This document shows, one piece after another, positions 31,797 to 47,181 of a stretch of 64,000 bases of DNA. Below the pieces are notes generated by a model that saw only the letters and a program-made list of their open reading frames with translations, was not told the origin of the DNA and did no database searches. The stretch is from Litoreibacter roseus. Its GTDB lineage: Bacteria > Pseudomonadota > Alphaproteobacteria > Rhodobacterales > Rhodobacteraceae. Each line of letters opens with the position of its first letter. Positions within the stretch are counted from its first letter, which is position 1. The stretch covers positions 806,001-870,000 of the forward strand of contig NZ_BLJE01000002.1 of the NCBI RefSeq assembly GCF_009811795.1. The letters are read 5' to 3'. A program made the translations under genes and the position numbers.

Positions 31797-32653
31797 CCAT
31801 TATTTGTCGTTTCAACGCTGGGGTGAAGTAGCATCAGTTCGCATGTGCGGCACCAAATCTGCCGGTATGCGGCAAGTGTCGTCACAGCGTTCATTCAAAC
31901 TGTCGCAAACGGTCATGAATGAAACTACGCTTTCGCCGTGTCACTAATCGTGACCAAAGACGCGAACAAAGCAACGTTTTACTCAACGATGAAACTCTGG
32001 CCGCACATCAAAACGGAAAACTGCAGGGTTGGTGCTTAAAATTCTCGCAGTCTCAGTCTTGACGCTCAATACTACGAGTAAGCCATTTGGCAGGTGAGCG
32101 GTATACTCCCAATGTCGGTAGCTACTATGAAATTTTCCAAGAGTAAATTACGAATAGGTGACATAATCGAGTGAATAATTTGGAAACGGCTTGTCAGCTC
32201 ACGGAATCGTCTAAAAATAAGTTTTGTTGGTACCTGGCATGATTGCCGACGAAGTGTACAATTTTAGATCACCGGCCTGTCCGTCATCAGAATTTTTAGA
32301 ACCACAGTGTCTGACGTTAGCGTAGTCAGTTCCGAGTCAGGCCTTTTCACCTAGTTACACACAGTTGATCCATCAAATGTAATGCCGCATTTGGCGGGCA
32401 GATCGACGCCATCCTGATAGGACAACGGTTGGCGCAGATAAGAACGCGCGGTGCAGAGAATGATATCGAAGGGGAAACGGTGATACTTGAACGGAAATCT
32501 ACGCGGAATACTTAACCTCAAGGGCGTTAAAGAGCCTACCGCCAGCGATTAATCCAATAGTCCTATCAGAACCAGGTTCCGCAAATTTTCATAGTAACGA
32601 AAGCGCAGGAGTCACGCAGAGATCGTTACCAATGTGATCACGGTCGTGATCGG
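31797..32653. other. AT-richer gene-free stretch
   Basis: About 860 bases with no frame that looks coding on either strand. The composition is clearly more AT-rich than the flanking core genome. No repeats or RNA gene recognised. It may be decayed island DNA. Confidence 0.5.
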
Positions 32654-33088
32654 TTATTTCTCAATGGAGCCGTTCTTTGGGTCGACCGCGTCTGTGGTCT
32701 GCCTGACTGCTGCCGTGGCTTCTATTTCAACGACGAATTCCGGCCGGGTGAAGCCGATGACGATAACAAGTGTCGAAGCGGGCGGCGGTGAGATGTTGGC
32801 GAGCCAGGCGTCCCGCGCCGCCATGTAGCCTGCCATGTGCGCTCGGTCCGTGACGTAGGCATTCAGCCGCAGAACGTCTTCCCGACCCGCGCCCGCCTCT
32901 GCGAGGACGGCATCGATATTCGCAAAGCAGATCTTGGCCTGAGCCTCTGCGCCCTCAGGGACTGTTCCATCTGCCGTCATCCCCAATTGGCCTGAGGTTG
33001 CGATCAACTGGCATCCCGGTGCGGCCGCAGCGCCGTGGGAGTAGCGCGCGAAGGGTGGTGCGATGGAGTTCGGGTTTAATGCTTTCAT
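32654..33088 (-). CDS. RidA/YjgF-family protein (atypical, lacks the catalytic Arg)
   Basis: 144 aa with the Rid fold signatures: SGQLGMTADG, ICFANIDAVLAEAGAGREDVLRL, and the C-terminal VVEIEATAAVR. True RidA enzymes deaminate reactive enamine/imine intermediates using an Arg in a PAR motif. Here the motif reads PPPAS, with Ser105 in place of that Arg, so it belongs to another Rid subgroup, many of which sit in catabolic clusters. GGGGGA precedes the ATG at 33088. It is divergent from the operon starting at 33294, and probably works with it. Confidence 0.85.
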   Translation of the reverse strand: MKALNPNSIAPPFARYSHGAAAAPGCQLIATSGQLGMTADGTVPEGAEAQAKICFANIDAVLAEAGAGREDVLRLNAYVTDRAHMAGYMAARDAWLANISPPPASTLVIVIGFTRPEFVVEIEATAAVRQTTDAVDPKNGSIEK

Positions 33089-33293
33089 GGCTGATCCCCC
33101 TATGCGTATCCGGGCGACGGTGCCCGAGATTACGCGCAGATCAAACACGAAGCGGGTATCAAATATGCGCCAGCCTATGTTCTGCTCAATTTTTCAGCAT
33201 TTACTCTTGTTGTGACCGCGCAATGGCAGGACCGGTCTTTGCACCCGTTAACGAACGCAGATGCTGTGTCCGACGGGAAAATGGGAGAATGAG

Positions 33294-34286
33294 ATGTCGA
33301 AAAGACTAGCAGCGATTGCGGTTGCGACCTTCATCGCGCAAGGGGCGCTGGCCGATGGAGATGCTGAGAAAGTCGTTTTTGGGACCAACTGGCTTGCGCA
33401 AGCCGAACATGGCGGTTTCTACCAATCTGTGGCGGACGGCACGTATGAGGCGTGCGGGCTAGATGTGGAGATCATTTCCGGGGGACCGCAGGTCAACAAC
33501 CGGGCCCTCATGCTGGCGGGTCGCATCGATTTTCACATGGGCGGTGACATGCTGCAGGCCTTCAACGCCGTGAAAGAAGGCATACCTGTCGTTGCGGTCG
33601 CCGCGATTTTCCAGAAACATCCGCAGGTCATCTTGGCCCATCCGGGTGAAGCTGACAGCTGGGACGAGCTGAAAGATCTCACCCTCCTGATTGGGGACAA
33701 TGGGTTCACCAGCTATTATCAATGGATGATCGCCGAACATGGCTTTACCGTTGAACAGCGCGAGCCCTACACCTTTAATCCGGCCCCGTTCATTGCGGAT
33801 AAGGGCAAAGGGATGCAGGGCTACCTGTCCTCTGAGCCATATGTGGTGGAGAAAGAAGCGGGATTTAAACCGAATGTCTTTCTGATCGCTGATGCTGGAT
33901 ACTCATCCTACGCCACGACAATCGAGACCATGGCCGAGACCATTGAAACACGCCCTGAAGTCGTGAAATGCTTTGTCGATGGTTCGCTGACTGGTTGGTA
34001 CAACTATCTCTACGGTGACAGCGCTGCGGCAGATGAACTGATCCTCGCGGCCAATCCTGACATGAGCCAGGACAAAATCGATTTTGCCAAGAACATGATG
34101 CTGGAACAGGAAATCGTAGACAGCGGCGCCGCGCTGGAAACCGGGATTGGCTCGATGACGGACGAAGTGATCGGTGATTTCTACGAAAAGATGGTGGCAT
34201 CGGGCGTGATCGAGGACGAACTTGACTGGAAGGCCTCCTACACGCTTGAATTCACCAATCAAAAGGTTGGAATGGACCTGAAGTAA
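33294..34286 (+). CDS. ABC transporter substrate-binding protein, NMT1/THI5 type
   Basis: 330 aa with a Sec signal (cleavage near ALA at about residue 20). The mature protein has the NMT1/THI5-like pattern KVVFGTNWLAQAEHGGFYQS and VEIISGGPQVNNRALMLAGR. Known relatives bind pyrimidine thiamine precursors, riboflavin, taurine or other small nitrogen compounds; the ligand here is not evident. GGGAG lies before the ATG at 33294. It heads the catabolic operon ending at 41559. Confidence 0.9.
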   Translation: MSKRLAAIAVATFIAQGALADGDAEKVVFGTNWLAQAEHGGFYQSVADGTYEACGLDVEIISGGPQVNNRALMLAGRIDFHMGGDMLQAFNAVKEGIPVVAVAAIFQKHPQVILAHPGEADSWDELKDLTLLIGDNGFTSYYQWMIAEHGFTVEQREPYTFNPAPFIADKGKGMQGYLSSEPYVVEKEAGFKPNVFLIADAGYSSYATTIETMAETIETRPEVVKCFVDGSLTGWYNYLYGDSAAADELILAANPDMSQDKIDFAKNMMLEQEIVDSGAALETGIGSMTDEVIGDFYEKMVASGVIEDELDWKASYTLEFTNQKVGMDLK

Positions 34287-34352
34287 GGTTCGGTCACGAT
34301 GATGGCGGGTGGCTCTGCAAGGGCTACCCGTAAACGCCAAGGGACCAACTTA

Positions 34353-35141
34353 ATGCCAAGCCAGACACCGCTGCCACTGGGCGCGCGCCCCGAATTGCTG
34401 AAAATGGAAGGGATCGACAAAACCTTCAACGGTGATGTTGTTGCGCTGAAAGGCCTTTCCTTGCAAGTAAACGAAGGCGATTTCATCTCGCTGCTTGGGC
34501 CGTCAGGATGTGGAAAGTCCACCGCCCTTCGCCTGATCGCGGAATTGTCCCATCCAACGCGCGGTCGCATCACCTGGGCCGGCGGGCATGACACTGGCGA
34601 TTTGGGCGTTGTTTTTCAGGAGCCTACCCTGATGCCGTGGGCAACCGTCGCCGAAAATGTGTGGCTGCCGTTCCGGTTGCGGGGGGCCAGTTACGCATCG
34701 GTCAAGGATGAGGTGCTACAAGCCTTACGGCTTGTTGGGCTAGAGCGGTTTCAAACCGTCTACCCGCGGGAGTTGTCTGGCGGCATGAAGATGCGGGTGT
34801 CGATTGCGCGGGCCATGGTTACCCGGCCCCGCCTGATCTTGATGGATGAACCATTCGCCGCATTGGATGAAATCACACGGTTTCGGCTGAACAACGATTT
34901 GCTGGCGTTGAAAGAGAAGATCGGTTGCACGGTGATCTTCGTCACCCATTCGGTCTTTGAATCGGTGTTTCTGAGCGACCGGATCGTGGTGATGGCCGCA
35001 CGGCCGGGGCGTGTGATCCGTGAGTTGACGGTGGACGAAAGCTATCCGCGCGATGAAGACTTTCGAACCTCCTCGGACTACGCCGCGCACTGCCGGTCCG
35101 CATCCGACGCGTTGCACGAAGCGATGGGGATAGCCGCATGA
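34353..35141 (+). CDS. ABC transporter ATP-binding protein (NMT1-type system)
   Basis: 262 aa from the ATG at 34353, preceded by AAGGGA; a longer frame from 34299 is open but less likely. Walker A GPSGCGKST (49-57), ABC signature LSGGMKMR, Walker B LILMDEPFAALDE and the switch histidine in FVTHSVFE. The NitT/TauT-type ATPases look like this. Its stop overlaps the start of the permease gene by 4 nt. Confidence 0.92.
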   Translation: MPSQTPLPLGARPELLKMEGIDKTFNGDVVALKGLSLQVNEGDFISLLGPSGCGKSTALRLIAELSHPTRGRITWAGGHDTGDLGVVFQEPTLMPWATVAENVWLPFRLRGASYASVKDEVLQALRLVGLERFQTVYPRELSGGMKMRVSIARAMVTRPRLILMDEPFAALDEITRFRLNNDLLALKEKIGCTVIFVTHSVFESVFLSDRIVVMAARPGRVIRELTVDESYPRDEDFRTSSDYAAHCRSASDALHEAMGIAA

Positions 35142-36001
35142 GCATTGCCGAAGATCGCGGTGCGGATCCTGCACCCATCGTTGACGCAGACGAAGCGCGG
35201 CGTGCGCGTGCGCGGCGGCTTGACCAGATTGGCAAGTGGACGCTGCCCGCTCTGGTTTTGCTGGTGTCCTTGTTCCTGTGGGATCGGGTCGTCGTTTGGA
35301 ATGAGATACCTCATTACATTCTGCCCGGTCCGGGGCTCGTCTTCGAGACACTGATCAAGGACTGGGCGATGCTGTTTGACGCAGCATTGGTGACACTGCA
35401 AATCACGCTTATGGCGCTCGCCGTTGCTGTCTTGGGCGGGGTAGGGCTGGCAATCCTATTTACGCAATCGCGCTGGATCGAGATGTCATTCTACCCGTAC
35501 GCCGTCATTTTGCAGGTCACGCCGATCGTGGCGATTGCGCCGCTGATCTTCATCTACGTGGACAGTCGCATTGCGGGGCTTTTGCTTTGTGCATGGCTGG
35601 TGGCGTTTTTTCCAGTCTTGTCCAACACCACGCTCGGGCTGAACTCGGCCGACCACAACCTGCGCGATCTGTTTCGCATCATGGGCGCGACGCGATGGCA
35701 GCGGCTGCGGTATCTGCAACTGCCCTCTGCCTTGCCCTACTTTCTGGGCGGCTTGCGGATTGCTGGCGGTCTGTCTCTGATCGGGGCTGTAGTTGCGGAA
35801 TACGTTGCGGGCACAGGTGGCATCGGATCTGGGCTGGCGTTCCGCATTCTCGAAGCGGGCTACAGGCTCAACATCCCGCGTATGTTTGCGGCGCTTATCC
35901 TGATCGCCGGAATGGGGGTGATCATTTTTGCGGGGCTTAGCTTCCTCAGTCATATGCTGCTGCGAAAGTGGCACGAAAGCGCGCTGAAGCGGGAGCGGTG
36001 A
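35138..36001 (+). CDS. ABC transporter permease (NMT1-type system)
   Basis: 287 aa, about six membrane segments and the EAA-type coupling loop (LFRIMGATRWQRLRYLQLPSALPYFLGGLR). It resembles SsuC/TauC/ThiX-like permeases. It overlaps the ATPase gene by 4 nt and shares one base with the start of the amidohydrolase gene (TGATG), so the transporter and first enzyme are translated together. Confidence 0.92.
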   Translation: MSIAEDRGADPAPIVDADEARRARARRLDQIGKWTLPALVLLVSLFLWDRVVVWNEIPHYILPGPGLVFETLIKDWAMLFDAALVTLQITLMALAVAVLGGVGLAILFTQSRWIEMSFYPYAVILQVTPIVAIAPLIFIYVDSRIAGLLLCAWLVAFFPVLSNTTLGLNSADHNLRDLFRIMGATRWQRLRYLQLPSALPYFLGGLRIAGGLSLIGAVVAEYVAGTGGIGSGLAFRILEAGYRLNIPRMFAALILIAGMGVIIFAGLSFLSHMLLRKWHESALKRER

Positions 36002-37266
36002 TGGATTTCATGACGCTGCCCGACGGGCCGGTTCGCTTGAAGAACCTCACCGTGCCCGCTTGTCTGATGGACCGACCGGGCGACTTGCTACGGGTCGATT
36101 TCAGTCTGTCCGGTGGCCAGATCGCCATTGAAGGCGGCACCGAATTCGACATGCAGGGCGCGATGGTTTTTCCGGCCTTTGTCGATATGCACACCCATCT
36201 CGACAAGGGCCACATCTGGGACCGCGCGCCAAACCCGGACGGGACTTTTCCAGGTGCCCTGTCCACAGTTACGGCAGATCGCGAGGCAAACTGGTGCGCT
36301 GAGGATGTCCGCACGCGCATGGAGTTTGCGCTGAAATGTGCCTACGCACACGGCACCCGCGCGATCCGTACGCATCTTGATAGTATTCCGCCGCAGGACG
36401 AGATTTCCTGGGCCGTGTTCCGGGAGCTTCGCGATGAATGGGCTGGACGGATCGATCTGCAGGCGGCGTGTCTGGTCGGCTGTGACAGAATGGAGGCGAA
36501 CGGCGCCTTCCGGAAAACCGCCGACATCGTGGCCGAAAGTGGCGGGGTTCTTGGCATGGTACTTTACCCCGCCTTCGATCTGCGCGAGCGGCTCGCAGGA
36601 TTCCTACGCCTCGCCACCGAGCGGGGTTTGGCCGTCGACTTTCACGTTGATGAAACGATGGACCCCGAAAGCGAAACCCTGCGCCTGCTTGGCGAAACCG
36701 TGCTTGAAACGGGGTTCAGTGCGGCTGTGACGGTCGGCCATTGCTGCTCGCTCTCCACGCAGGACACGACGCGGGCGTTCGATACACTTGATCTGGTTGC
36801 GAAGGCCGGGTTTTCCGTAGTCAGCCTGCCCATGTGCAACCTCTATCTCCAAGACCGCCACCGGGACCGCACGCCAAGGGCGCGCGGGATCACACTGGTC
36901 CATGAGATGAAAGCACGTGGGATAAACGTGTCCTTCGCCTCGGACAACACGCGTGACCCATTCTACGCCTACGGTGATCTGGACATGCTGGAGGTTATGC
37001 GCCAAGCCACCCGGATCGGGCATCTGGACCATTCCGCCGATGACTGGAGCCATGCTTTCATTGGCAACCCGGCTCACGCCTGTGGTTTTGACAAACCGAC
37101 GCTCGTCCCAGGGGAACCGGCGGACCTGGTGATTTTCAAGGCCCGTTCGTGGACTGAGCTTTTCGCGCGCCCGCAGATGGACCGGATCGTCCTACGTGCG
37201 GGCCGACAGATCGACCGCACCCTGCCGAGCTATTGCGAACTGGACCACCTGATGAGGACCCAATGA
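36001..37266 (+). CDS. CodA-like amidohydrolase (cytosine-deaminase family, altered active site)
   Basis: 421 aa metal-dependent amidohydrolase. Ligands expected for the CodA group are His64 and His66 (HTHLDK), His215 with catalytic Glu218 (FHVDE), His247 (VGHCC) and Asp315. The residue after that Asp, an Asp in E. coli CodA, is Asn316 here, and the CodA glutamine that contacts the base amide is not conserved (LVGCDR). It should therefore deaminate or hydrolyse a ring other than cytosine. GGGAGCG precedes the start. It overlaps the following oxidase gene by 4 nt. Confidence 0.87.
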   Translation: MDFMTLPDGPVRLKNLTVPACLMDRPGDLLRVDFSLSGGQIAIEGGTEFDMQGAMVFPAFVDMHTHLDKGHIWDRAPNPDGTFPGALSTVTADREANWCAEDVRTRMEFALKCAYAHGTRAIRTHLDSIPPQDEISWAVFRELRDEWAGRIDLQAACLVGCDRMEANGAFRKTADIVAESGGVLGMVLYPAFDLRERLAGFLRLATERGLAVDFHVDETMDPESETLRLLGETVLETGFSAAVTVGHCCSLSTQDTTRAFDTLDLVAKAGFSVVSLPMCNLYLQDRHRDRTPRARGITLVHEMKARGINVSFASDNTRDPFYAYGDLDMLEVMRQATRIGHLDHSADDWSHAFIGNPAHACGFDKPTLVPGEPADLVIFKARSWTELFARPQMDRIVLRAGRQIDRTLPSYCELDHLMRTQ

Positions 37267-38660
37267 CACCAAACGTTGCCGCCGCCAAAGCCGCCCTGTC
37301 GCATCTGGATGTCGAAGAGAAGGAGGCGAACATCCGGGCCTCGTCTCGCGATTTCTTTTGGTATTCGCCTGTTTTGAAGGACCGGCTGGATCACGTAGTC
37401 GCCGATTTCGTTGTGCGTCCACGCACTGAGGCCGAGGTGATCGAGGTGCTGAAGACCTGCTACGCCCATGACTGCCCTGTGACCACACGCGGCGCGGGCA
37501 CGGGCAATTACGGTCAAGCGATGCCCCTTGCGGGCGGTTGCGTGATGCATCTCAAGCATATGGCTGAGGTCAAAGCGGTGCATCCGGGTCGCGTGATTGT
37601 AGAGCCGGGATGCCTGCTGAAAGACCTCGATATGGTCTGCAGGGACACCGGGCAGGAAATACGGATGTTCTCCTCAACTTGGGCTACGGCAACCATTGGC
37701 GGTTTCATCGCAGGTGGTTCAGGTGGTGTGGGGTCCTGTACATGGGGCTCGCTCCGAGATTTGGGCAACATCATCCGCTTGCGCGTCGTCACCATGGAGG
37801 AAGAGCCGCGCGTGCTTGACTTCCGCGGCGAGGAGTTGGCCCGTGTCAGCCATGCCTACGGCACGAACGGCATCATCACAGAGATCGAGATACCGTTGGC
37901 TCCTGCCTATGACTGGGTCGAGATGTTTGTGGCCTGTGACGATTTCATGGAGGCTGCGCACTTTGCCGAGCAACTGGCCAACGAGGATGGCATACTGATC
38001 AAGCTTGCGACCGTGTTCGAAGCGCCTGCGGCCTTTGAGTATTTCCAACGGGTCAAACCCCACGTGGAGCCGGCGACGCATCTGATCGCGCTGATGGTGG
38101 CGCCGCATTCGATGGATGGCTTTCTGACCTTCTTGTCGCGGCGGAACGATGCGCGTCTGATCTATCGTAATGACGATCATGACTGGGACCGCGAGCCGGG
38201 ATCGGTCTTCGAATACGGGTGGAATCACACGACCCTGCGCGCGCTCAAGGTGGATCCGTCGATCACCTATCTGCAGGTCCGCTATGGCTTCCCCGATCAC
38301 CTGCGCTTGATCGAAGAGATGCAGCAGGAGTTTTCGCCAGAAGTTCTGCAGCACCTCGAAGTACTCAAGGAAAACGGTAAGGTGATGTTCGCGGGCCTGA
38401 GCTTGGTGAAATTCAGCAGCGAAGCGCGACTGGACGAGATTATTCGCCGCCATGAAGAGGCGGGCGCGATGATCTTCAATCCGCACCGTTACACGCTAGA
38501 GGAAGGCGGTCGGCAGACCGTCGATGACAGGCAGTTGGCATTCAAGCGCGAGGCTGATCCCAAGGGGCTGCTGAACCCGGGTAAGATGATCGCATGGGAC
38601 GACCCGGACTGGCGTTATGACCGCATGTACAGTTATCCCAAACTGCAGGCGGCAGAATAG
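37263..38660 (+). CDS. FAD-binding oxidoreductase (VAO/PCMH, GlcD-like)
   Basis: 465 aa. The PCMH-type FAD domain is visible: VTTRGAGTGNYGQAMPLAGG, VEPGCLLKDLD and TIGGFIAGGSGGVGSCTWGS. The C-terminal half is the substrate domain, ending in DPKGLLNPGKMI, typical of GlcD/DLD-type oxidases. It would oxidise a hydroxy- or amine-bearing intermediate. The ATG at 37263 overlaps the amidohydrolase stop; three bases separate its stop from the next gene. Confidence 0.88.
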   Translation: MTPNVAAAKAALSHLDVEEKEANIRASSRDFFWYSPVLKDRLDHVVADFVVRPRTEAEVIEVLKTCYAHDCPVTTRGAGTGNYGQAMPLAGGCVMHLKHMAEVKAVHPGRVIVEPGCLLKDLDMVCRDTGQEIRMFSSTWATATIGGFIAGGSGGVGSCTWGSLRDLGNIIRLRVVTMEEEPRVLDFRGEELARVSHAYGTNGIITEIEIPLAPAYDWVEMFVACDDFMEAAHFAEQLANEDGILIKLATVFEAPAAFEYFQRVKPHVEPATHLIALMVAPHSMDGFLTFLSRRNDARLIYRNDDHDWDREPGSVFEYGWNHTTLRALKVDPSITYLQVRYGFPDHLRLIEEMQQEFSPEVLQHLEVLKENGKVMFAGLSLVKFSSEARLDEIIRRHEEAGAMIFNPHRYTLEEGGRQTVDDRQLAFKREADPKGLLNPGKMIAWDDPDWRYDRMYSYPKLQAAE

Positions 38661-38663
38661 GCG

Positions 38664-39245
38664 ATGGCGCGCGCTTTGGTTCTTTATGCACATCCCTGTC
38701 CAGAAAGCTTCGGAGCGGCCGTGCATGGAACCGTCGTGCAACGCCTGACAGATGGCGGATGGGATGTGGACGACTGCGACTTGAATGCCGAAGGCTTCAA
38801 TCCCGTTCTCAGTGAGCCTGAGCGTCGCGGATATCATGCTGAACCAGAAAATTGCACGCCGGTTCAGACCTATGTCGACCGCCTTCGCGCGGCAGACGCG
38901 CTGATCATGGTCTTTCCGGTCTGGAATTTTGGTTACCCGGCCATCCTCAAAGGGTTTCTGGACCGCGTGTTTCTGCCCGGCGTTTCCTTCAAGCTCGTGG
39001 ACGGCAAGGTCAGGCCAAATCTGACGCATATTCGCAAACTGGCAGCTGTGACCACGTATGGCGGTACACGCATGCGTGCGCTTCTGGCGGGTGACCCGCC
39101 GCGCAAATGTGTGACGCGAGCTGTCTGGCATGTCTGTCGGCCAGCCAAGATGCGGTATCTGGCGCTATATGACATGAACCGAGCCGATAATCGAAAACGG
39201 GGGCAGTTCCTCAAGAGGGTTGGCCAAGAAATGGAAGGTCTTTGA
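38664..39245 (+). CDS. NAD(P)H-dependent FMN reductase, flavodoxin-like fold (copy 1)
   Basis: 193 aa of the NQO1/KefF/MdaB-like flavodoxin_2 family: LVLYAHPCPESFGAAVHG at the N-terminus, FPVWNFGYPAILKGFLDRVF and VTTYGGTRMRALLAG. Such enzymes reduce quinones or supply reduced flavin. It is followed without a gap by a paralogue of the same fold (TGA then ATG). Two copies in a row suggest either a heteromer or two reductive steps. Confidence 0.86.
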   Translation: MARALVLYAHPCPESFGAAVHGTVVQRLTDGGWDVDDCDLNAEGFNPVLSEPERRGYHAEPENCTPVQTYVDRLRAADALIMVFPVWNFGYPAILKGFLDRVFLPGVSFKLVDGKVRPNLTHIRKLAAVTTYGGTRMRALLAGDPPRKCVTRAVWHVCRPAKMRYLALYDMNRADNRKRGQFLKRVGQEMEGL

Positions 39246-39875
39246 ATGCGCGCGCTTGTGATCTATGCGCATCCCCGCGAGGGCAGTTTCAACGCCGCCG
39301 TGCGGGACGTGGTATTGGATCGGCTGGTCGAGGCGGGCGCGGAGGTCCGGCTCATCGACCTTTACAAGCGAGGCTTTGATCCCTGTCTGACGGAAGCTGA
39401 GCTGGAATGCTACGAAGACATGAAGCGAAACTGTGCACCGGTCGAAAGTGACGTGGATGATTTGCGATGGTGCGATACACTGATCTTTGTGTATCCAACG
39501 TGGTGGTATGGCCTGCCCGCGATCCTCAAAGGATGGCTGGACCGGGTGCTTGTGCCCGGGGTAGCGTTTCTGATGCCTGATGACGAGCACAAGGACATAC
39601 GACCCGGCTTGACCCATATCACCCGGCTTGGTGTCTTCACGACGTGCGGGGCCAGTTGGTGGTTAACGCGTTTTATCGGCGCGCCAGGTCGGCGCACGTT
39701 GATGCGCGGAGTGCGTCTGATCTGCGCGAAGAGATGCAAAACAGCCTACGCCGCACACCACTTGATGGACAGTTCCACTCAAGCGTCACGCGAGGCACAT
39801 CTGAATAAGGTCGCGCGTGCGATGAACCGGTTCGTCGCACGAGGTGCCACAGCGCGCAAAGAGGCACGTGCATGA
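39246..39875 (+). CDS. NAD(P)H-dependent FMN reductase, flavodoxin-like fold (copy 2)
   Basis: 209 aa, the paralogue of the preceding gene: LVIYAHPREGSFNAAVRD, FVYPTWWYGLPAILKGWLDRV and LGVFTTCGASWW align block by block with it. It begins directly after the first copy's stop and overlaps the oxygenase gene by 4 nt. The likely role is quinone or flavin reduction using NAD(P)H; the physiological partner is unknown. Confidence 0.86.
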   Translation: MRALVIYAHPREGSFNAAVRDVVLDRLVEAGAEVRLIDLYKRGFDPCLTEAELECYEDMKRNCAPVESDVDDLRWCDTLIFVYPTWWYGLPAILKGWLDRVLVPGVAFLMPDDEHKDIRPGLTHITRLGVFTTCGASWWLTRFIGAPGRRTLMRGVRLICAKRCKTAYAAHHLMDSSTQASREAHLNKVARAMNRFVARGATARKEARA

Positions 39876-40783
39876 TCCCGGTTCTGGACTGGCAACGCTT
39901 TGAGGCCGACTCGGTAGGTTTCGCGGCTGAGTTGGGTGCGGCCTGCCGTGGATCGGGATTTTTCCTGCTGCAGAACCATCCGGTCACGCCTGCCCTGATT
40001 GATGCCACATTTGACACGGCAGACACGTTCTTTGCGTTAGATCCGGCTGAGAAGTCCGCGCTCTCCATCGGTTTGAACGACCATAACCGCGGGTGGGTTG
40101 GACAGGGACACGAAAAGCTCGCCGGCGCACATAGCCCCGCGGATCAGAAAGAGGCGTTCAACATCGGCCTTGATCTCGCCCCTGACGATGCGCGCGTTCT
40201 GGCGGGCGAGCCGTTTCGCGGCGTCAATGTCTGGCCTGACCTCGACGGCTTCAAGGACACGACACTTGCCTATTTCGATGCCTGCTTGGACCTGAGTACG
40301 GCATTGATGCAGGCGGTTGCACTTGACCTGCAATTACTGCGCGCCCATTTTGCTCCGCATTTTACCGCGCCGCTCGCCACGCTGCGGTTGTTGCACTATC
40401 CCGCATCCCAGAACGGCGCGGGTATCGGTGCGGGCGCACATACGGACTACGGCGCTCTGACGCTTTTGATGACCGATGGGGAGGCAGGGCTTCAGGTTCA
40501 GCCCCGAGGGCAGGACTGGACCGATGTTCCGCATGTGCCGGGCGCGTTCATTGTGAATATCGGGGACTGTCTCATGCGTTGGACGAACGACATCTACATC
40601 TCCACACCCCATCGCGTGTTGCCGCCCCGCAATCAAAGACGCTCAATCGCTTTCTTTCTTGACCCGAACCCTGACACCCTTGTCGAAACCTTGCCGGGCA
40701 CTGGTACGCCGCGTTACGCACCGATCACCGGGGCTGACTATCTTCGCATGCGGTTGGACGCCACCTACGAGCCAGCCCAATGA
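39872..40783 (+). CDS. Isopenicillin-N-synthase-like 2-oxoglutarate/Fe(II) oxygenase
   Basis: 303 aa. The iron triad is His190, Asp192 (HTDYG) and His247, and the 2-oxoglutarate-binding RxS is Arg257-Ser259-like in QRRSIAFF. The N-terminal DIOX_N block (RGSGFFLLQNHPV) is present. Bacterial members hydroxylate or demethylate small molecules, nucleobases among them. It overlaps neighbours by 4 nt on both sides. Confidence 0.88.
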   Translation: MIPVLDWQRFEADSVGFAAELGAACRGSGFFLLQNHPVTPALIDATFDTADTFFALDPAEKSALSIGLNDHNRGWVGQGHEKLAGAHSPADQKEAFNIGLDLAPDDARVLAGEPFRGVNVWPDLDGFKDTTLAYFDACLDLSTALMQAVALDLQLLRAHFAPHFTAPLATLRLLHYPASQNGAGIGAGAHTDYGALTLLMTDGEAGLQVQPRGQDWTDVPHVPGAFIVNIGDCLMRWTNDIYISTPHRVLPPRNQRRSIAFFLDPNPDTLVETLPGTGTPRYAPITGADYLRMRLDATYEPAQ

Positions 40784-41559
40784 ACCGCCGACTTGACTGG
40801 GCCGAGTTTCGCGCCTCGGAATTCGCCGACATTGATCCGATGCGCACAATTGCGATCCTACCAACTGCGGCGATCGAACAACATGGACCCCATTTGCCGG
40901 TCGGAACCGACACGATGATCGCCGACGGCATGCTTGATGTCTTGCGTATGACTTGTCCGGACGATCTCGACATTCGCATCCTGCCCGTTCAGGCGGTCGG
41001 CAAGTCGAACGAACACCTCTGGGCGGCAGGCACGCTGACGCTCACGGCAGCAACCGCTCTGCAGGTCTGGACCGAGATTGGCTTGTCCGTTGCGCAGGCT
41101 GGCGTGCGCAAGCTGGTTATCGTGAACTCCCACGGTGGCAATCTGGATCTGGTGTCGATCCTCTCCCGTGAGCTAAGAGTTCAGGCGAATATGCTCGCCG
41201 TGAAGTGCCAGTGGTCGAGCTTCAGTGCGCCCGAGGGCATGTATCCGCCCGAGGAACTGCAGTTTGGTATTCACGGGGGTGACGTCGAAACGTCGCTGAT
41301 GTTGGCTTTTCAGCCGACGACCGTCGATATGACCCGCGCCGCACACAATCGATCAAGCGCAGAGGCGTCGCCCATTTCGCCTATTGGTCCTGTGAGCTAT
41401 GGATGGATCGCCAGCGATCTGAATGCGACCGGCGTAGTCGGTGACGCCTCGAAAGCCACTGCCGAAAAAGGCCATGCTACGGCCCGTCATCAAGTGTCGG
41501 GCTTCATCGATTTGCTACGCGATGTCGCGATGGCCGAGCTTTTTGATAATGATGTGTAA
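40780..41559 (+). CDS. Creatininase-family amidohydrolase
   Basis: 259 aa. Metal ligands of the family are visible: Glu33 and His35 (EQHGPHLP), Asp44 (GTD), His118 (NSHGGN) and Glu170 (HGGDVETS). Members open cyclic amides (creatinine) or remove formyl groups from pyrimidine precursors. As the last gene of the operon it is the natural ring-opening or amide-hydrolysing step. It overlaps the oxygenase gene by 4 nt and converges on the minus-strand hydrolase. Confidence 0.88.
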   Translation: MNRRLDWAEFRASEFADIDPMRTIAILPTAAIEQHGPHLPVGTDTMIADGMLDVLRMTCPDDLDIRILPVQAVGKSNEHLWAAGTLTLTAATALQVWTEIGLSVAQAGVRKLVIVNSHGGNLDLVSILSRELRVQANMLAVKCQWSSFSAPEGMYPPEELQFGIHGGDVETSLMLAFQPTTVDMTRAAHNRSSAEASPISPIGPVSYGWIASDLNATGVVGDASKATAEKGHATARHQVSGFIDLLRDVAMAELFDNDV

Positions 41560-41589
41560 GACCGAAAGGACTTCTCTGACGGGATCCTC

Positions 41590-42318
41590 TCAAAGATCCA
41601 ACCTAAGGTAGTCACGTAATAGAATGTTAAACGCGGTTGGGTTCTCAAGATGGGCTGCGTGGGCGCAGGCTGGAAGAACGGCAAGGTGTGTTTGGGGAAT
41701 TGTTTTCCAAAGCATCTCAGTTTGGCTCCACGGGTAGGTACGGTCGCAGTCCCCCCATATGATCAGGGTGCTCTGCTGAATTTCTGACAGCGCGGCGCCC
41801 CCGGACCAGGATTGCATCGCGTCCAGCCCAGATAGAATTGCGTCAAGACTGGCTTGCTCCGCAACGGCAGCGCAGCTTTCGTAGGTCAGTGCGCTCTCGC
41901 CTTGAAGAAACCAGCTTGCGGTGATGCGACGGGCCGTCACCCGCGCGCCGTCTCTAGTGGCACGAGTACGGCTTTCGGTGATTGTCTCAAACCGTCCCGG
42001 CAGAACACCAAATGCACCCGTCGCGTAGAGCACGAGCTTTTCAACTTGCTTCGGGATACGACGCGCGACCTCTTGCACGATCATACCCCCCATTGAGTGG
42101 CCGAGCAGATTGAACTGGTCCACACCCTTATCATGCAAGTCAGTTATCACCCAATCGGCGAAGCCTTCGATTGTGCTGATTGCAGGCAGGTGGCTATTCT
42201 CGCCGAAGCCCGGAAGGTCCAAGGTGATCACATCCCATGTATCGGACAGAGCTTCACGCTGTCCGTCCCACTGCGCACCTCCGCCCAGAAATCCATGGAC
42301 CATCACAAGCGGTGTCAC
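41590..42318 (-). CDS. Alpha/beta-fold hydrolase
   Basis: 242 aa. The oxyanion block VMVHGFLGGGAQW is near the N-terminus, the nucleophile elbow GHSMGG puts the catalytic serine at Ser75, and a late Asp and His (ACAHAAHLE) complete the triad. It resembles small carboxylesterases and lactonases. It is the last gene of the cuyA-transporter operon and overlaps the permease gene by 4 nt, so it probably hydrolyses the imported compound or its ester. Confidence 0.87.
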   Translation of the reverse strand: MTPLVMVHGFLGGGAQWDGQREALSDTWDVITLDLPGFGENSHLPAISTIEGFADWVITDLHDKGVDQFNLLGHSMGGMIVQEVARRIPKQVEKLVLYATGAFGVLPGRFETITESRTRATRDGARVTARRITASWFLQGESALTYESCAAVAEQASLDAILSGLDAMQSWSGGAALSEIQQSTLIIWGDCDRTYPWSQTEMLWKTIPQTHLAVLPACAHAAHLENPTAFNILLRDYLRLDL

Positions 42319-43856
42319 TTGCGCTGACCCTGCACGATACGATCAAGGATCATGGCGCAAAACAAGATCGCAAAACCCGCGAGGATGCCTTGGCCGACAT
42401 TGGCGTATTGTAGGGCTTCCAGAACGTCTTCGCCGAGGCCCTTCGCACCGATCAGGGAAGCCACCACGACCATTGCAAGAGACAGCATGATGGTCTGATT
42501 GATGCCCGCACGAATGGACGGACTGGCGAGCGGGAGGTCCACACGCGTGAGCAGATACCATTTGTTTGCCCCGAACGAGATTGCAGCCTCCCGCACGCTT
42601 TCGGGCACCCCGCGCAGCCCCAAAACTGTCAGGCGCACAACAGGCGTCCCGCCAAAGATCATCGTGGTTACAACGGCGGCGGGTTTTCCGGTGCCAAAGA
42701 AGGCAATGACTGGGATCATGAAGACGAACGCTGGCATGGTCTGCATGAAATCCATAATCGGTTGAATTGTAGCGTAAAACCGGGGTCGGCGCGCCGCAAA
42801 CATGCCCAACGGGATCCCGATCAGGATCGATAGACAGGCTGCAGTGCCCAGCAGGGCAAGCGTGGTCATTGCCTTCTCCCAAAACCCAAGCAAGCCCATA
42901 TAGGACAAGAACGCCCCGGAATAGATTGCCATCCTGACGCCAGCGGTTAGCCAAGTGAGAAGGATAATCAGCGCAGCGATCACAATCCATGGGGTGCTGA
43001 CGAATACGATCTCAAGAGCGTCCAAAACGAGACGTATGACAAAGGTGATCCCGTCAAACAGGGCTTCGCCGTTTAATACGGCCCAATTGAAAAAGTTTTC
43101 GACCCAATCAATGCTCGTCAGGCGAATGTCGGGATCCGTAGGGAACTTGCTCAGTAGATCGAACCGGCCCGGAAGACTGTAGTGCAGCATGGCGGCCAAG
43201 ACGATCAGGGCCATGAAAACTGCACTAAAGACAATCTGCGATACGGGCATGCCAGACCGAACCGAGCGATCAGACAGCCAATCCGAAAACCGTGCCTCTA
43301 GGGCCCAGTTGGCCACCGTTGCCTGCGCCACCTTAGCAATCAGCAAAAGACCCAAGCCGATGAGCGCAATCTGTGGACCTTGTGCGGCGAGAGCCGCCGC
43401 CTCGTCGCGAATGCCGCCGATGTTCGCCTCCAGTCCGTCGACGGCGCGCTGGAAGGCATCGACGCGGTCAGAACCCGTTTCAACGGCGGCCGCCAGTTGT
43501 TGGCGGCGTAGCTCTAGCGTGCCTTCGATCGACGCGATCCGGTCCATGGCGTCGGCCCCAAGATCACCAAAGAGACCGCGCGCGATTTGTACGAAGGCCA
43601 GAGCCTCGATGATCAGAAACGGCAATGCCCACGACCAAAGCCCCCGCGCCCCGAACCAGATCGGACCAAAAAGACCTGCCATCAGGTTCATCGTTGGCGT
43701 GAACCGGGAAGATGCGCCGATCTTGTCGAAGTTCCTGATGTAGTACTCCGGGCTGGTCCGCACAAAGGTCCGAATGTTGTCGTGCCGTTCTTGTGCGTAG
43801 GCAATTGCGGCGTCACTGTTCGGATCATCAAGCGGATTTATGGTGCCGTCCATCAT
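42315..43856 (-). CDS. Betaine/TMAO-type ABC permease with an N-terminal extra domain
   Basis: 513 aa, much longer than a simple ProW/OpuAB permease. Residues ~1-90 look like a DUF2628-type membrane domain (SPEYYIRNFDKIGASSRFTP and FGPIWFGARGLW). Residues ~105-155 are heptad-like coiled coil with many Ala/Glu/Arg. The C-terminal ~300 residues are the ProW permease with a clear EAA-like loop (EAAISFGANKWYLLTRVDLP). Long permeases of this sort occur in TMAO/betaine importers of Roseobacters (TmoW-like, from memory). It overlaps its neighbours by 4 nt. Confidence 0.85.
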   Translation of the reverse strand: MMDGTINPLDDPNSDAAIAYAQERHDNIRTFVRTSPEYYIRNFDKIGASSRFTPTMNLMAGLFGPIWFGARGLWSWALPFLIIEALAFVQIARGLFGDLGADAMDRIASIEGTLELRRQQLAAAVETGSDRVDAFQRAVDGLEANIGGIRDEAAALAAQGPQIALIGLGLLLIAKVAQATVANWALEARFSDWLSDRSVRSGMPVSQIVFSAVFMALIVLAAMLHYSLPGRFDLLSKFPTDPDIRLTSIDWVENFFNWAVLNGEALFDGITFVIRLVLDALEIVFVSTPWIVIAALIILLTWLTAGVRMAIYSGAFLSYMGLLGFWEKAMTTLALLGTAACLSILIGIPLGMFAARRPRFYATIQPIMDFMQTMPAFVFMIPVIAFFGTGKPAAVVTTMIFGGTPVVRLTVLGLRGVPESVREAAISFGANKWYLLTRVDLPLASPSIRAGINQTIMLSLAMVVVASLIGAKGLGEDVLEALQYANVGQGILAGFAILFCAMILDRIVQGQRK

Positions 43857-44929
43857 GAGACTTCAGTCCCTTCGATAACCGTGCGTAAAAGATCTGCGCG
43901 GGTGATGATGCCAATGTCGCTACCATTTTCCTCCACCAGAATTGGGTTGGCGTCGTCGATGGCGAGGTTGATCAGGTTGCTCAGCGTCTCTTGTCCTTTG
44001 ACGCGTGGTGCGCTGGCAGGAACAGCGCCATTGGCGGTCGTGTAAGCGCTTATGGGCTGCATGACGGCATGGGCATGCACAACTTTCAGGCGTGAGATGC
44101 CCGCGACGAAATCCGATACGTAGTTATCGGCCGGGTGCATCACGATATCCTCCGCTGTTCCGATTTGAACCATTTTTCCGTCGCGCATAATCGCGATACG
44201 GTCGCCAATGCGAACGGCCTCATCAAGGTCGTGAGTGATGAAAATCGTGGTCTTCTTCAGGATCTTCGACAGCCGGATGAATTCGTCCTGCAATTGCCTG
44301 CGGATCAGCGGATCAAGTGCGGAAAACGGCTCGTCCATCAATAGAACATCAGGGTTGGCCGCAAGCGCGCGCGCCAGTCCCACGCGCTGCTGCATTCCGC
44401 CTGACAATTCATGGGCGAACTTTGCGCCCCACGCGCCAAGCTCGACAATGTCCAGAATGGCAGCGGCCTGCCGCATCCTTTCGTTTTTTGACACCTGCCG
44501 AATTTCCAACGGCATAGCGACGTTATCCAGAACCGAGCGGTGGGGCATCAGGGCGAAGTTCTGAAACACCATACCAATCTTTCGGTTGCGGAATTTCTGC
44601 AGCTCTTGAGGCCCAAGCGCCATCACGTCGGTGCCTTCGATTTTGATCTTACCAGCCGTTGGTTCCAGCAGACGGTTGAAATGGCGCACCAAGGTCGACT
44701 TTCCGCTGCCGGACAGACCCATGATGCAGAAGATCTCACCCCGCTTCACCGACAAGCTGACGTCTGCGACGCCGACAACTGCGTTGTATTCAGACAGAAC
44801 ATCGGCCTTGGACAGCCCACGCTCCCGTATTGCCGTCAGCGCTTGGTCCGGATTCGCGCCAAAGATCTTCCAGACGTTTGAGATTTCGATGACATGGTCG
44901 TCGCGTTGCGTCATAGCTTTGCCAATCAT
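43853..44929 (-). CDS. Betaine/TMAO-type ABC transporter ATP-binding protein
   Basis: 358 aa from the ATG read at 44929 (44914 is an alternative; neither has a strong ribosome site, and the frame extends without good reason to 45100). It is a ProV/OpuAA-type ATPase with Walker A GLSGSGKST (71-79), signature LSGGMQQR, Walker B DVLLMDEPFSALDP and a C-terminal CBS-like regulatory tail ending DIGIITRADLLRTVIEG. The tail in this class can sense ionic strength or nucleotides. Second transporter gene of the cuyA operon. Confidence 0.9.
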   Translation of the reverse strand: MIGKAMTQRDDHVIEISNVWKIFGANPDQALTAIRERGLSKADVLSEYNAVVGVADVSLSVKRGEIFCIMGLSGSGKSTLVRHFNRLLEPTAGKIKIEGTDVMALGPQELQKFRNRKIGMVFQNFALMPHRSVLDNVAMPLEIRQVSKNERMRQAAAILDIVELGAWGAKFAHELSGGMQQRVGLARALAANPDVLLMDEPFSALDPLIRRQLQDEFIRLSKILKKTTIFITHDLDEAVRIGDRIAIMRDGKMVQIGTAEDIVMHPADNYVSDFVAGISRLKVVHAHAVMQPISAYTTANGAVPASAPRVKGQETLSNLINLAIDDANPILVEENGSDIGIITRADLLRTVIEGTEVS

Positions 44930-44984
44930 CAGAGGCGCCGACCCGGACTGCCCGCGCCAGCGCCGTTTCGCACGGATTGGGCCC

Positions 44985-45944
44985 TCAGAGCCCCAACATC
45001 GCGTCAACGCGATCAGAGTTGGCCGCGACCCAGTCCTTCGCAACATCTGCCGGATCACGCCCATTGGCGCTGATCTCAAAGGCAAGGTTGCTGACGTCAT
45101 CCGCGGTCAGCCCGAAATTCGCAAAGAACTCCGCAATTGCGGGGGATCGGTCGGCAAGGGAGTTCGACCATGCAATTTGTACCTGCTTGAGATCGTCCTT
45201 CGTGGCGACCGTAGACTTTTCATACCAATCAGCGTCATCCGACGGTTGAACCATGATATATTTCTCCGGATCAAACGTCGGTTCGGTCAGCATGGTCACA
45301 TCGAACATGTACCAGACAGCGTGTGGTTCGTAGCAGTAGAACGCATAGCCTTCCCCCTTGGCGATGCTGTCTTTGATGCGGGCCGTCTTGACCGCTTCCT
45401 CGGCGCGGATGGGCTCGATGAAATCAAGCAAGCCGTAGTCGCGAACTTTAACTTCGTTTACATTGGCGGAGGCCCAGCCGGGCGCGCCGATCCACATCTC
45501 CCCTCGGCCGTTTCCATCACTGTCCATCAGGGTAGCCACGTCGGGACGACCCAGATCCGCGATATCGGTGATGCTGTTGGCGGCTGCAAAATCCTTCGAG
45601 ACGCAAAAGCCCTGATTGCCTTGGTAGGGGTTTGACGACAGTGTCACCGTCCCGGCCTCGTCCACGTATTGCTTCGTGAAGCTTTCCTGATTGGGCAGCC
45701 ACACATCCGGATGGACGTCGATATCCCCTTCGCCCTGATCCATCGCCTGAAAAATGGTTGCGTTGTTCCCCGGCACGTAATCGACCGTGCCGCCAATGCG
45801 GGTCGTGACAACTTCCCCCAGAACATACGCAATTGCCTGTGCGCCGGTCCAAGATGGTACGCCAATCTTAACGTCCTCGGCGAACACTGGCGCACCGATG
45901 ACGCTCATCAGTGCCGCCGCCATCAAGTTCTTTTTCAGTATCAT
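44985..45944 (-). CDS. Betaine/TMAO-type ABC substrate-binding protein (TmoX/OpuAC family)
   Basis: 319 aa with a Sec signal (cleavage near VFA-ED, residue 22). The mature part (VKIGVPSWTGAQAIAYVLGE, YVPGNNATIFQAMDQGEGDI, WLPNQE, WIGAPGW) is tryptophan-rich at the positions where this family builds an aromatic box for quaternary amines. It strongly recalls TmoX, the TMAO-binding protein of Ruegeria, but no TMAO-degrading enzyme is nearby. AAGGAG sits nine bases before the ATG at 45944; the longer frame to 45977 is unlikely. Confidence 0.88.
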   Translation of the reverse strand: MILKKNLMAAALMSVIGAPVFAEDVKIGVPSWTGAQAIAYVLGEVVTTRIGGTVDYVPGNNATIFQAMDQGEGDIDVHPDVWLPNQESFTKQYVDEAGTVTLSSNPYQGNQGFCVSKDFAAANSITDIADLGRPDVATLMDSDGNGRGEMWIGAPGWASANVNEVKVRDYGLLDFIEPIRAEEAVKTARIKDSIAKGEGYAFYCYEPHAVWYMFDVTMLTEPTFDPEKYIMVQPSDDADWYEKSTVATKDDLKQVQIAWSNSLADRSPAIAEFFANFGLTADDVSNLAFEISANGRDPADVAKDWVAANSDRVDAMLGL

Positions 45945-45973
45945 TTCGGTTGTCTCCTTGCTGGTCAGTTTTT

Positions 45974-47071
45974 TCAACGTGGCGCATAGCCTGGTAAATC
46001 GAAGGTCTCAGGGTAGCCGAACAGGGCAGCACTTCCGCCGGTATGCAAGAAAGCGACATTGCTCATGCCGTCAAAATAGCCTTTCCGGATCAGGTCGATC
46101 AGCCCATCAAGGCCCTTGCCGGAATAGACAGGGTCAAAGAGCAAACCTTCGGTTTCCGCCAGCAGCTTGAGTGCTGCGATCATGCCATCTGTCGGCAAGC
46201 CATAGCCCGGCCCCACGTAATCGCAGTTGGCGCGCACATCAGACCGTTTGATCTCTGCGGGTGCCCCAAGGTACGCGTTCGTGCGGTTGGCAAGGTCGTA
46301 GACCATACCCTCTTGCTTTTCTTGCGGTGCCCGAACACCAATTCCCAGAAGGTGAATATCTCTTTGGATCGCAGCTAATCCGGCCACCAAACCAGCTTGG
46401 GTTCCAGAGCTTCCGGTCGCATGTAGAAGGGCTTCGAGCTGCAAACCCATCCCATTGGCCTGCTCAACCAGCTCACGCGCGCAATTGACATATCCAAGGG
46501 CGCCAATGGCATTTGAGCCGCCGCCCGGAATGACGTAGGGGGTCTTGCCCTGTTCAAGCAATTCTTCAGCCATATCCGCCATCTCGACGTTCATGTCACT
46601 GCCACCGCTTCGTTTGGAGACAGTTGCGCCATGAAGGCGGTCAAGCAGGACGTTGCCATTCAGAATGTAGCTCTCGTCGTTTGACCCGGTGCGATCTTCG
46701 AGCAGGATGTGGCAAGCCATACCCAGCTTTGCCGCCGCGGCTGCGGTCTGGCGCGCATGGTTTGACTGGGTCGCGCCTTGGGTGATGATCGTGTCTGCAC
46801 CTTGCGCTTGTGCATCCGCCATCAGAAATTCCAGTTTCCGGGTCTTGTTGCCGCCAGACGAAAGCCCCGTGCAGTCGTCCCGCTTCACCCAAAGCCGTGG
46901 GCCCCCCAGAATCTCGCTGAGCCGGTCCATGGGTTCTAGCGGTGTGGGCAAATGCCCTAACGTGACGCGCGGAAATTTAGCCAACCGAATGGCAAGATCC
47001 TTGCAGCGGCTCGCCGTCATATCCGCCGATCCCGAAACGCCTTGCTCCGTCATTTGATCAGTTGCAGTCAC
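45974..47071 (-). CDS. cuyA: L-cysteate sulfo-lyase CuyA (D-cysteine desulfhydrase family)
   Basis: 365 aa PLP enzyme of the ACC-deaminase/D-cysteine-desulfhydrase family. The PLP lysine is Lys76 in [11 protein letters not shown], and [15 protein letters not shown] plus [15 protein letters not shown] are typical. The blocks IKRDD-like [10 protein letters not shown] and [13 protein letters not shown] match, from memory, CuyA of Ruegeria and Roseovarius, which splits cysteate into pyruvate, sulfite and ammonia. D-cysteine desulfhydrase remains the alternative. The GTG at 47071 has a strong GGAGGG just before it and is the best start. First gene of the transporter operon. Confidence 0.75.
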
Positions 47072-47181
47072 GATTGCCCTCCATTTCGCGCCTAGCCAAA
47101 GCATCATCTGGAGTCTGCTAAATAAACAGTGCTTTTTCCTATGGCCGCTCATACCTATGGTTTGGGTGGCTGGGGGAAACT
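47072..47181. promoter_or_regulatory. Divergent promoter region, cuyA operon / LysR gene
   Basis: 110 bases between the leftward cuyA and rightward LysR starts. Regulators of this family normally bind such an intergenic region at a T-N11-A site; no copy is clear enough to place. A ribosome site for the LysR gene (GGGGGAAA) is at the right end. Confidence 0.45.

Follow-up and report, generated by a model that had tools for sequence, protein, structure and literature searches.

A candidate operon for uptake and breakdown of folate-derived pteridines in Litoreibacter roseus and its relatives

A 64,000-nucleotide stretch of the Litoreibacter roseus genome (contig NZ_BLJE01000002.1, positions 806,001 to 870,000; hereafter the window) contains nine genes running in one direction and a divergent gene for a Rid-family protein, which together encode an ABC importer and a set of putative ring-degrading enzymes. 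This is a widespread catabolic operon, most likely for folate-derived pteridines, and one of its enzyme types already carries a folate label in the PDB. We consider it probable that the operon is dedicated to importing and oxidatively breaking down a pteridine derived from folate turnover, such as pterin-6-carboxylate, lumazine-6-carboxylate or pteroate. The genes present, their conservation, their intact residues for metal and cofactor binding and the kinship to the PDB protein 6v42 are shown here; the substrate and all reactions are inferred.

The strongest lead to the substrate appears to be the flavoprotein, which points towards folate catabolism. It matches 6v42, titled "flavin oxygenase ... 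involved in folate catabolism", over its full length in both sequence and fold, with 55% identity. In turn, 6v42 is 73-75% identical to a group of proteins, two of which had their neighbourhoods read (L168 and L185); both neighbourhoods hold the gene set of the window minus its oxygenase.

In the proposed pathway, the pteridine would be taken up by the NMT1-type binding protein and the ABC importer, and the amidohydrolase would remove the 2-amino group, converting a pterin to a lumazine. The ring would be oxygenated by the VAO-fold flavoprotein, with the flavodoxin-fold reductases keeping this enzyme reduced, and a cyclic amide would be opened by the creatininase-fold hydrolase. An unstable enamine or imine intermediate could be hydrolysed by the Rid protein, which lacks the catalytic arginine, and a substituent or ring carbon could be hydroxylated by the Fe(II)/2-oxoglutarate (Fe/2OG) oxygenase, which is present only in part of the family.

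Gene arrangement and conservation among close relatives

The ten genes were checked by open reading frame (ORF) coordinates, Pfam and NCBIfam (Table 1). The gene order described in the first-pass annotation, a same-strand run with tight junctions and a divergent Rid gene at its head, was confirmed in full, both in coordinates and in families. Four junctions overlap by 4 nt (35138-35141, 37263-37266, 39872-39875 and 40780-40783) and one by 1 nt (36001); two others have gaps of 3 nt (38661-38663) and 0 nt (39245/39246). For the amidohydrolase, the start is taken as the ATG at 36001, inside a listed ORF that begins at 35968. The interval 32000-42500 has no Rfam match at E<=1 that would indicate a riboswitch, and a sigma-70 promoter scan was uninformative, with 0 sites against 3.1 expected in shuffled sequences.

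Table 1. Genes of the candidate pteridine operon and the divergent Rid gene (window coordinates)
Product	Position	Strand	Family matches and remarks
Rid-family protein	32654..33088	-	divergent from the operon; PF01042, 75 bits
NMT1/THI5-type periplasmic substrate-binding protein	33294..34286	+	Pfam NMT1, PF09084
ABC importer ATPase	34299..35141	+	PF00005 (ABC_tran); later start 34347 used in analyses
ABC importer permease	35138..36001	+	PF00528 (BPD_transp_1)
Amidohydrolase, model name 'cytosine deaminase' PRK07583; candidate pterin deaminase	36001..37266	+	Amidohydro_3/1; NF005759
VAO-fold FAD protein, relative of the flavin oxygenase of folate catabolism	37263..38660	+	FAD_binding_4
Flavodoxin-fold NAD(P)H reductase 1	38664..39245	+	PF02525 (Flavodoxin_2)/PF03358
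Flavodoxin-fold NAD(P)H reductase 2	39246..39875	+	PF02525 (Flavodoxin_2)/PF03358
IPNS-like Fe(II)/2-oxoglutarate oxygenase	39872..40783	+	PF14226 (DIOX_N) and PF03171 (2OG-FeII_Oxy)
Creatininase-fold metal amide hydrolase	40780..41559	+	PF02633, 220.8 bits

Homologous loci were found with the flavoprotein as bait. Of 295 genomes sampled from the family to which L. roseus belongs, 102 match it at E<=1e-60, and 68 of these carry it at >=67% identity (the window's own genome and fragments in two genomes are counted). The distribution is patchy; the single genus-mate sampled (G171) has no match. A scan of named genomes yielded at least 583 loci, of which the best 80 were taken, a set that thus leans to close relatives; 64 of the 80 had enough flanking sequence for gene counts (hits of >=40% identity within 7.5 kb). 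All 64 of these close loci contain the binding protein, ATPase, permease, amidohydrolase and flavoprotein, in agreement with the earlier proposal of one dedicated uptake-and-degradation operon conserved across genomes, and 61 contain reductase 1. The two reductases resemble each other, and their separate counts may contain cross-hits. In a group of 18 of the 64 loci, mostly from Rhizobiales (L107-L128), the oxygenase is found in none and reductase 2 in two.

Clustering of ORFs detected no further gene family common across the close set, apart from a LysR family in the flanks of 17 loci, other non-operon families in at most six loci each, and about seven larger clusters that by eye look like antisense ORFs of the operon genes. 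Since the gene set is kept in relatives, no other family is common across it, and the set recurs in rearranged form elsewhere, the ten genes are a real unit and a chance cluster is excluded.

Several replicons with the operon are plasmids. The full operon lies on named plasmids of Paroceanicella and Sulfitobacter, and a Pseudooceanicola plasmid carries it without the oxygenase. Plasmids of Rhizobium and Agrobacterium have a reduced form with one reductase and no oxygenase, in which the creatininase gene is upstream beside a LysR gene and the Rid gene is at the far end; Rhizobium accounts for 109 of the 144 plasmid records with a flavoprotein match.

Active sites and alternative substrates

Residues were counted in homologues from loci L039-L128 with >=85% coverage and >=40% identity, the window protein included and other homologues dropped. 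The metal and catalytic residues of the amidohydrolase (H64, H66, H215, E218, H247 and D315) are present in 85 of 85 aligned proteins, and the protein passes the cytosine deaminase model NF005759 (PRK07583) with 610.6 bits against a cut-off of 403. The base-binding residues of CodA, which we take to be Gln156 and Asp314, are a different matter: no 'PQ' glutamine is aligned, and positions 155-161 contain no Gln in any of the 85 proteins. Asn316 stands at the place of Asp314 in all of them, a weak sign, as the aligned CodA 4r7w has Ser there. Thus the automatic name 'cytosine deaminase' is probably mistaken, and the CodA likeness, from which the first-pass annotation had drawn a substrate clue, does not serve as one at face value. 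Arg318 is invariant in the close set (85/85) and is replaced by Cys or Gln in 3 of 8 subtype proteins compared; it suggests an acidic substrate.

The creatininase-fold hydrolase retains E33, H35, D44, H118 and E170 in 79 of 79 aligned proteins. Together with the cyclic-amidine-type hydrolase, this fold would fit breakdown of a cyclic guanidine, a hydantoin or a creatinine-like five-membered ring, and in L126 a guanidine-I riboswitch and a guanidinase-like gene follow the operon. Such a substrate is nevertheless improbable. The protein scores 82.6 bits against a cut-off of 235 for the creatininase equivalog TIGR04448, and all 79 proteins have Gly-Gly (GGN for YEN) where creatininase has Tyr-Glu, presumably Tyr121-Glu122 in its numbering, so that the name, taken literally, is not supported as a clue to the substrate. 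Among the loci searched with tblastn, only L126 had the guanidinase-like neighbour.

The L126 arrangement (L126:12240-16484) comprises the Rfam-detected guanidine-I riboswitch, then an ABC importer and a gene recognized by eye as guanidinase-like, directly after the operon; it is the only riboswitch match among six loci scanned with Rfam.

The Rid protein departs from its family at the catalytic position. Arg105 is described as essential for imine hydrolysis by RidA in the accessible part of the source (PMC4433059). Ser105 of the window protein aligns with the Arg of the RidA family protein 6l8p, and Ser occupies this position in 65 of 65 aligned proteins. Because Ser replaces the essential Arg105, the predicted Rid step is the least certain of the pathway.

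The metal and 2OG sites of the oxygenase are intact (H190, D192, H247, R256 and S258 in 34 of 34 aligned proteins), and it matches thymine dioxygenase 5c3p with E=3.6e-41. This resemblance raises the alternative of a pathway for modified pyrimidines, such as 5-methylcytosine or thymine derivatives, in which the amidohydrolase would deaminate, the oxygenase would oxidize a methyl group like thymine-7-hydroxylase, and the creatininase-fold and Rid proteins would finish the opened ring. We compared the metal, 2OG and base-sandwich residues of thymine-7-hydroxylase, as given in the available portion of its description (PMC4787775). Equivalents of the His/Asp/His triad, Arg190, Tyr194, Arg286, Ser288, Tyr217 and Phe292 are present in 34 of 34 proteins, several of them shared by other relatives, and that of Asn87 in 22; Asn294 is replaced by Asp or Glu, and Glu122 aligns with a residue other than Glu. 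RutR-like regulators in one subtype (3 of 3 tested) also fit the pyrimidine alternative. We regard it as unlikely. Two PDB entries with other names match the oxygenase better than 5c3p and, by eye, share Arg190, Tyr217 and Phe292, which are therefore not diagnostic; the oxygenase is not found in most of the close loci; the amidohydrolase lacks the cytosine deaminase Gln; and 6v42 is ascribed to folate.

The binding protein is closest in fold to thiamin- and aminopyrimidine (FAMP)-binding proteins, as would be expected if the thiamin pyrimidine (HMP or FAMP) were imported and broken down. Among the 68 genomes with a close flavoprotein gene, only 5 have thiC, compared with 38 of 295 in the family sample as a whole, a difference that is not significant (Fisher p=0.15); the genome of the window has no detected thiC. 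Most carriers therefore cannot make HMP that way and would be destroying a needed precursor, and we find this alternative highly improbable. A search of the literature on thiamin, and on homarine, provided nothing relevant to the operon.

In sum, the earlier proposal of an N-containing ring as the substrate class is supported. Among its more specific guesses, the 6v42 title favours the vitamin-derived ring, and pyrimidine, hydantoin and creatinine are less supported.

Distant operons and limits of the pteridine assignment

In a sample of the phylum, 32 of 398 genomes, including that of the window, match the flavoprotein profile at E<=1e-70. Forty further loci were chosen by hand, at least three of them cut by contig ends (L175, L179 and L191); their flavoproteins are 33-55% identical by best hits, or 34-63% to the better-matching of two queries. 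Amidohydrolase and creatininase-fold genes are each present in 35 of the 40 and Rid in 27, with all three in 24; the NMT1-type binding protein is present in 25, and the IPNS-type oxygenase in none. Flavoprotein, amidohydrolase, creatininase and Rid thus form a core that recurs in distant operons with the importer and oxygenase exchanged. One subtype, also found in Ruegeria TM1040, combines a TauD dioxygenase with an SBP_bac_5 binding protein and a DUF2165 membrane protein (8, 8 and 9 of the 40 loci, respectively), and SBP_bac_5 never occurs together with the NMT1-type protein. An enterobacterial subtype has a PDR/VanB-type reductase and a LysR regulator. A wider claim, that the operon is a complete pathway of pteridine import and mineralization whose four-enzyme core has been re-equipped in several groups of Pseudomonadota for related N-heterocycles, seems possible to us, and we advance it tentatively, short of favouring it.

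In individual loci, TauD and SBP_bac_5 surround the same enzyme core in L199, L182, L188, L203 and L206, with DUF2165 close by in four of these five (as judged from tblastn or the order of annotated genes). Loci L045, L129, L131 and L208 carry a TetR regulator whose annotation includes a TetR C-terminal domain; the regulators of the first three, those tested, are RutR-like (PF08362; TIGR03613 at 147-156 bits, below its cut-off of 368).

Several observations weigh against folate-derived pteridines as the substrate. The link to folate is a single PDB title, for which a primary paper was not found. In the nine carrier genomes examined, the 10 kb around the flavoprotein gene encode no M20 peptidase, the fold to which carboxypeptidase G belongs, and the nearest is about 11 kb away in G035; the operon itself therefore lacks the known first step of folate breakdown. 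As whole folate would need a carboxypeptidase G-type enzyme, intact folate is a less likely substrate than free pterins or pterin acids. Even among the 64 close loci, the proposed enzymes are not constant: creatininase is absent from 7 (present in 57), Rid from 10 (present in 54) and reductase 2 from 17 (present in 47), and the oxygenase is not found in 37 (present in 27). A reductase of either type was seen in 18 of the 40 further loci and none in 22. Distant relatives use an SBP_bac_5 importer, so other subtypes may handle other compounds, and the RutR-like regulators of one subtype would fit pyrimidines no less well than pterins.

Some loci depart further from the operon. In Rhizobium ruizarguesonis (L133:4288-10296), a reduced set comprises an ABC importer, an Fe/2OG oxygenase, LysR and a PRK07583-like amidohydrolase, with no flavoprotein annotated beside it. 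Plasmids of Aminobacter and Phyllobacterium (L132 and L136) encode a 51%-identical amidohydrolase in a different cluster common to both, annotated with transhydrogenase, NMT1-type importer, GTP-binding protein, RidA, GntR, isochorismatase, DpsA-like and octopine-dehydrogenase-like genes; this is perhaps another undescribed pathway.

In the window, the operon is met by a convergent neighbour operon (41590-47152, minus strand) encoding an alpha/beta hydrolase, a ProX/ProW-type ABC importer and the D-cysteate sulfo-lyase CuyA (NF052482, 529.6 bits against a cut-off of 450). It is probably devoted to import and desulfonation of cysteate.

Comparison with known systems

Searches of the open-licence literature for the gene set, the PDB entry, and folate or pterin catabolism found no paper on the operon. 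The first-pass annotation had known no named pathway with this set, which is only partly right, since a relative of one of its enzymes has a solved structure that is assigned to folate catabolism. The operons of that relative's kin (L168 and L185) share with the window the importer, amidohydrolase, two reductases, creatininase and Rid. In contrast to the window, they show no Fe/2OG oxygenase, and their creatininase gene does not end the operon but lies next to Rid in divergent orientation. The form in the window is a variant that adds an oxygenase and has its creatininase gene in another place.

The Rut pathway of pyrimidine breakdown combines flavin chemistry, amide hydrolysis and a Rid protein. 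The likeness in these three features is by analogy only; a RutA-type monooxygenase, RutB and RutG are absent among the ten window proteins according to Pfam and NCBIfam. The lumichrome (lum) operon, as far as the accessible part of its description goes, is also a system of vitamin-ring catabolism with amide-hydrolysing steps, but uses a P450, a xanthine oxidase, a Rieske protein and a catechol dioxygenase (PMC12746152).

A further related process is folic acid degradation in Variovorax sp. F1, which in the available part of the report proceeds by carboxypeptidase G and a pterin deaminase (PMC9513972). The likeness lies in a cyclic-amidine hydrolase (399 aa; 421 aa in the window) and an endoribonuclease-type gene downstream of it; in contrast, none of the nine genomes has a carboxypeptidase G-fold gene within 10 kb of the flavoprotein gene. 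A published primer for the Variovorax deaminase has only three sites, each with one mismatch, in 299 genomes. In one distant locus, L175, a Rid gene follows the gene of a 400-aa amidohydrolase; neither deaminase primer matches L174-L178 with up to four mismatches, and L175 is thus not tied to the characterized enzyme. In the available part of the Variovorax report, the account goes no further than deaminopteroate and mentions neither an importer nor a flavoprotein nor a ring-opening step; the strain is said to go beyond this compound, and formation of lumazine-6-carboxylate is called elusive (PMC9513972). The operon supplies candidate enzymes for later steps in the destruction of the pterin half of folate. 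If the pteridine assignment is true, it becomes possible to test directly what happens to vitamin B9 and to free pterins in the sea and in the rhizosphere.
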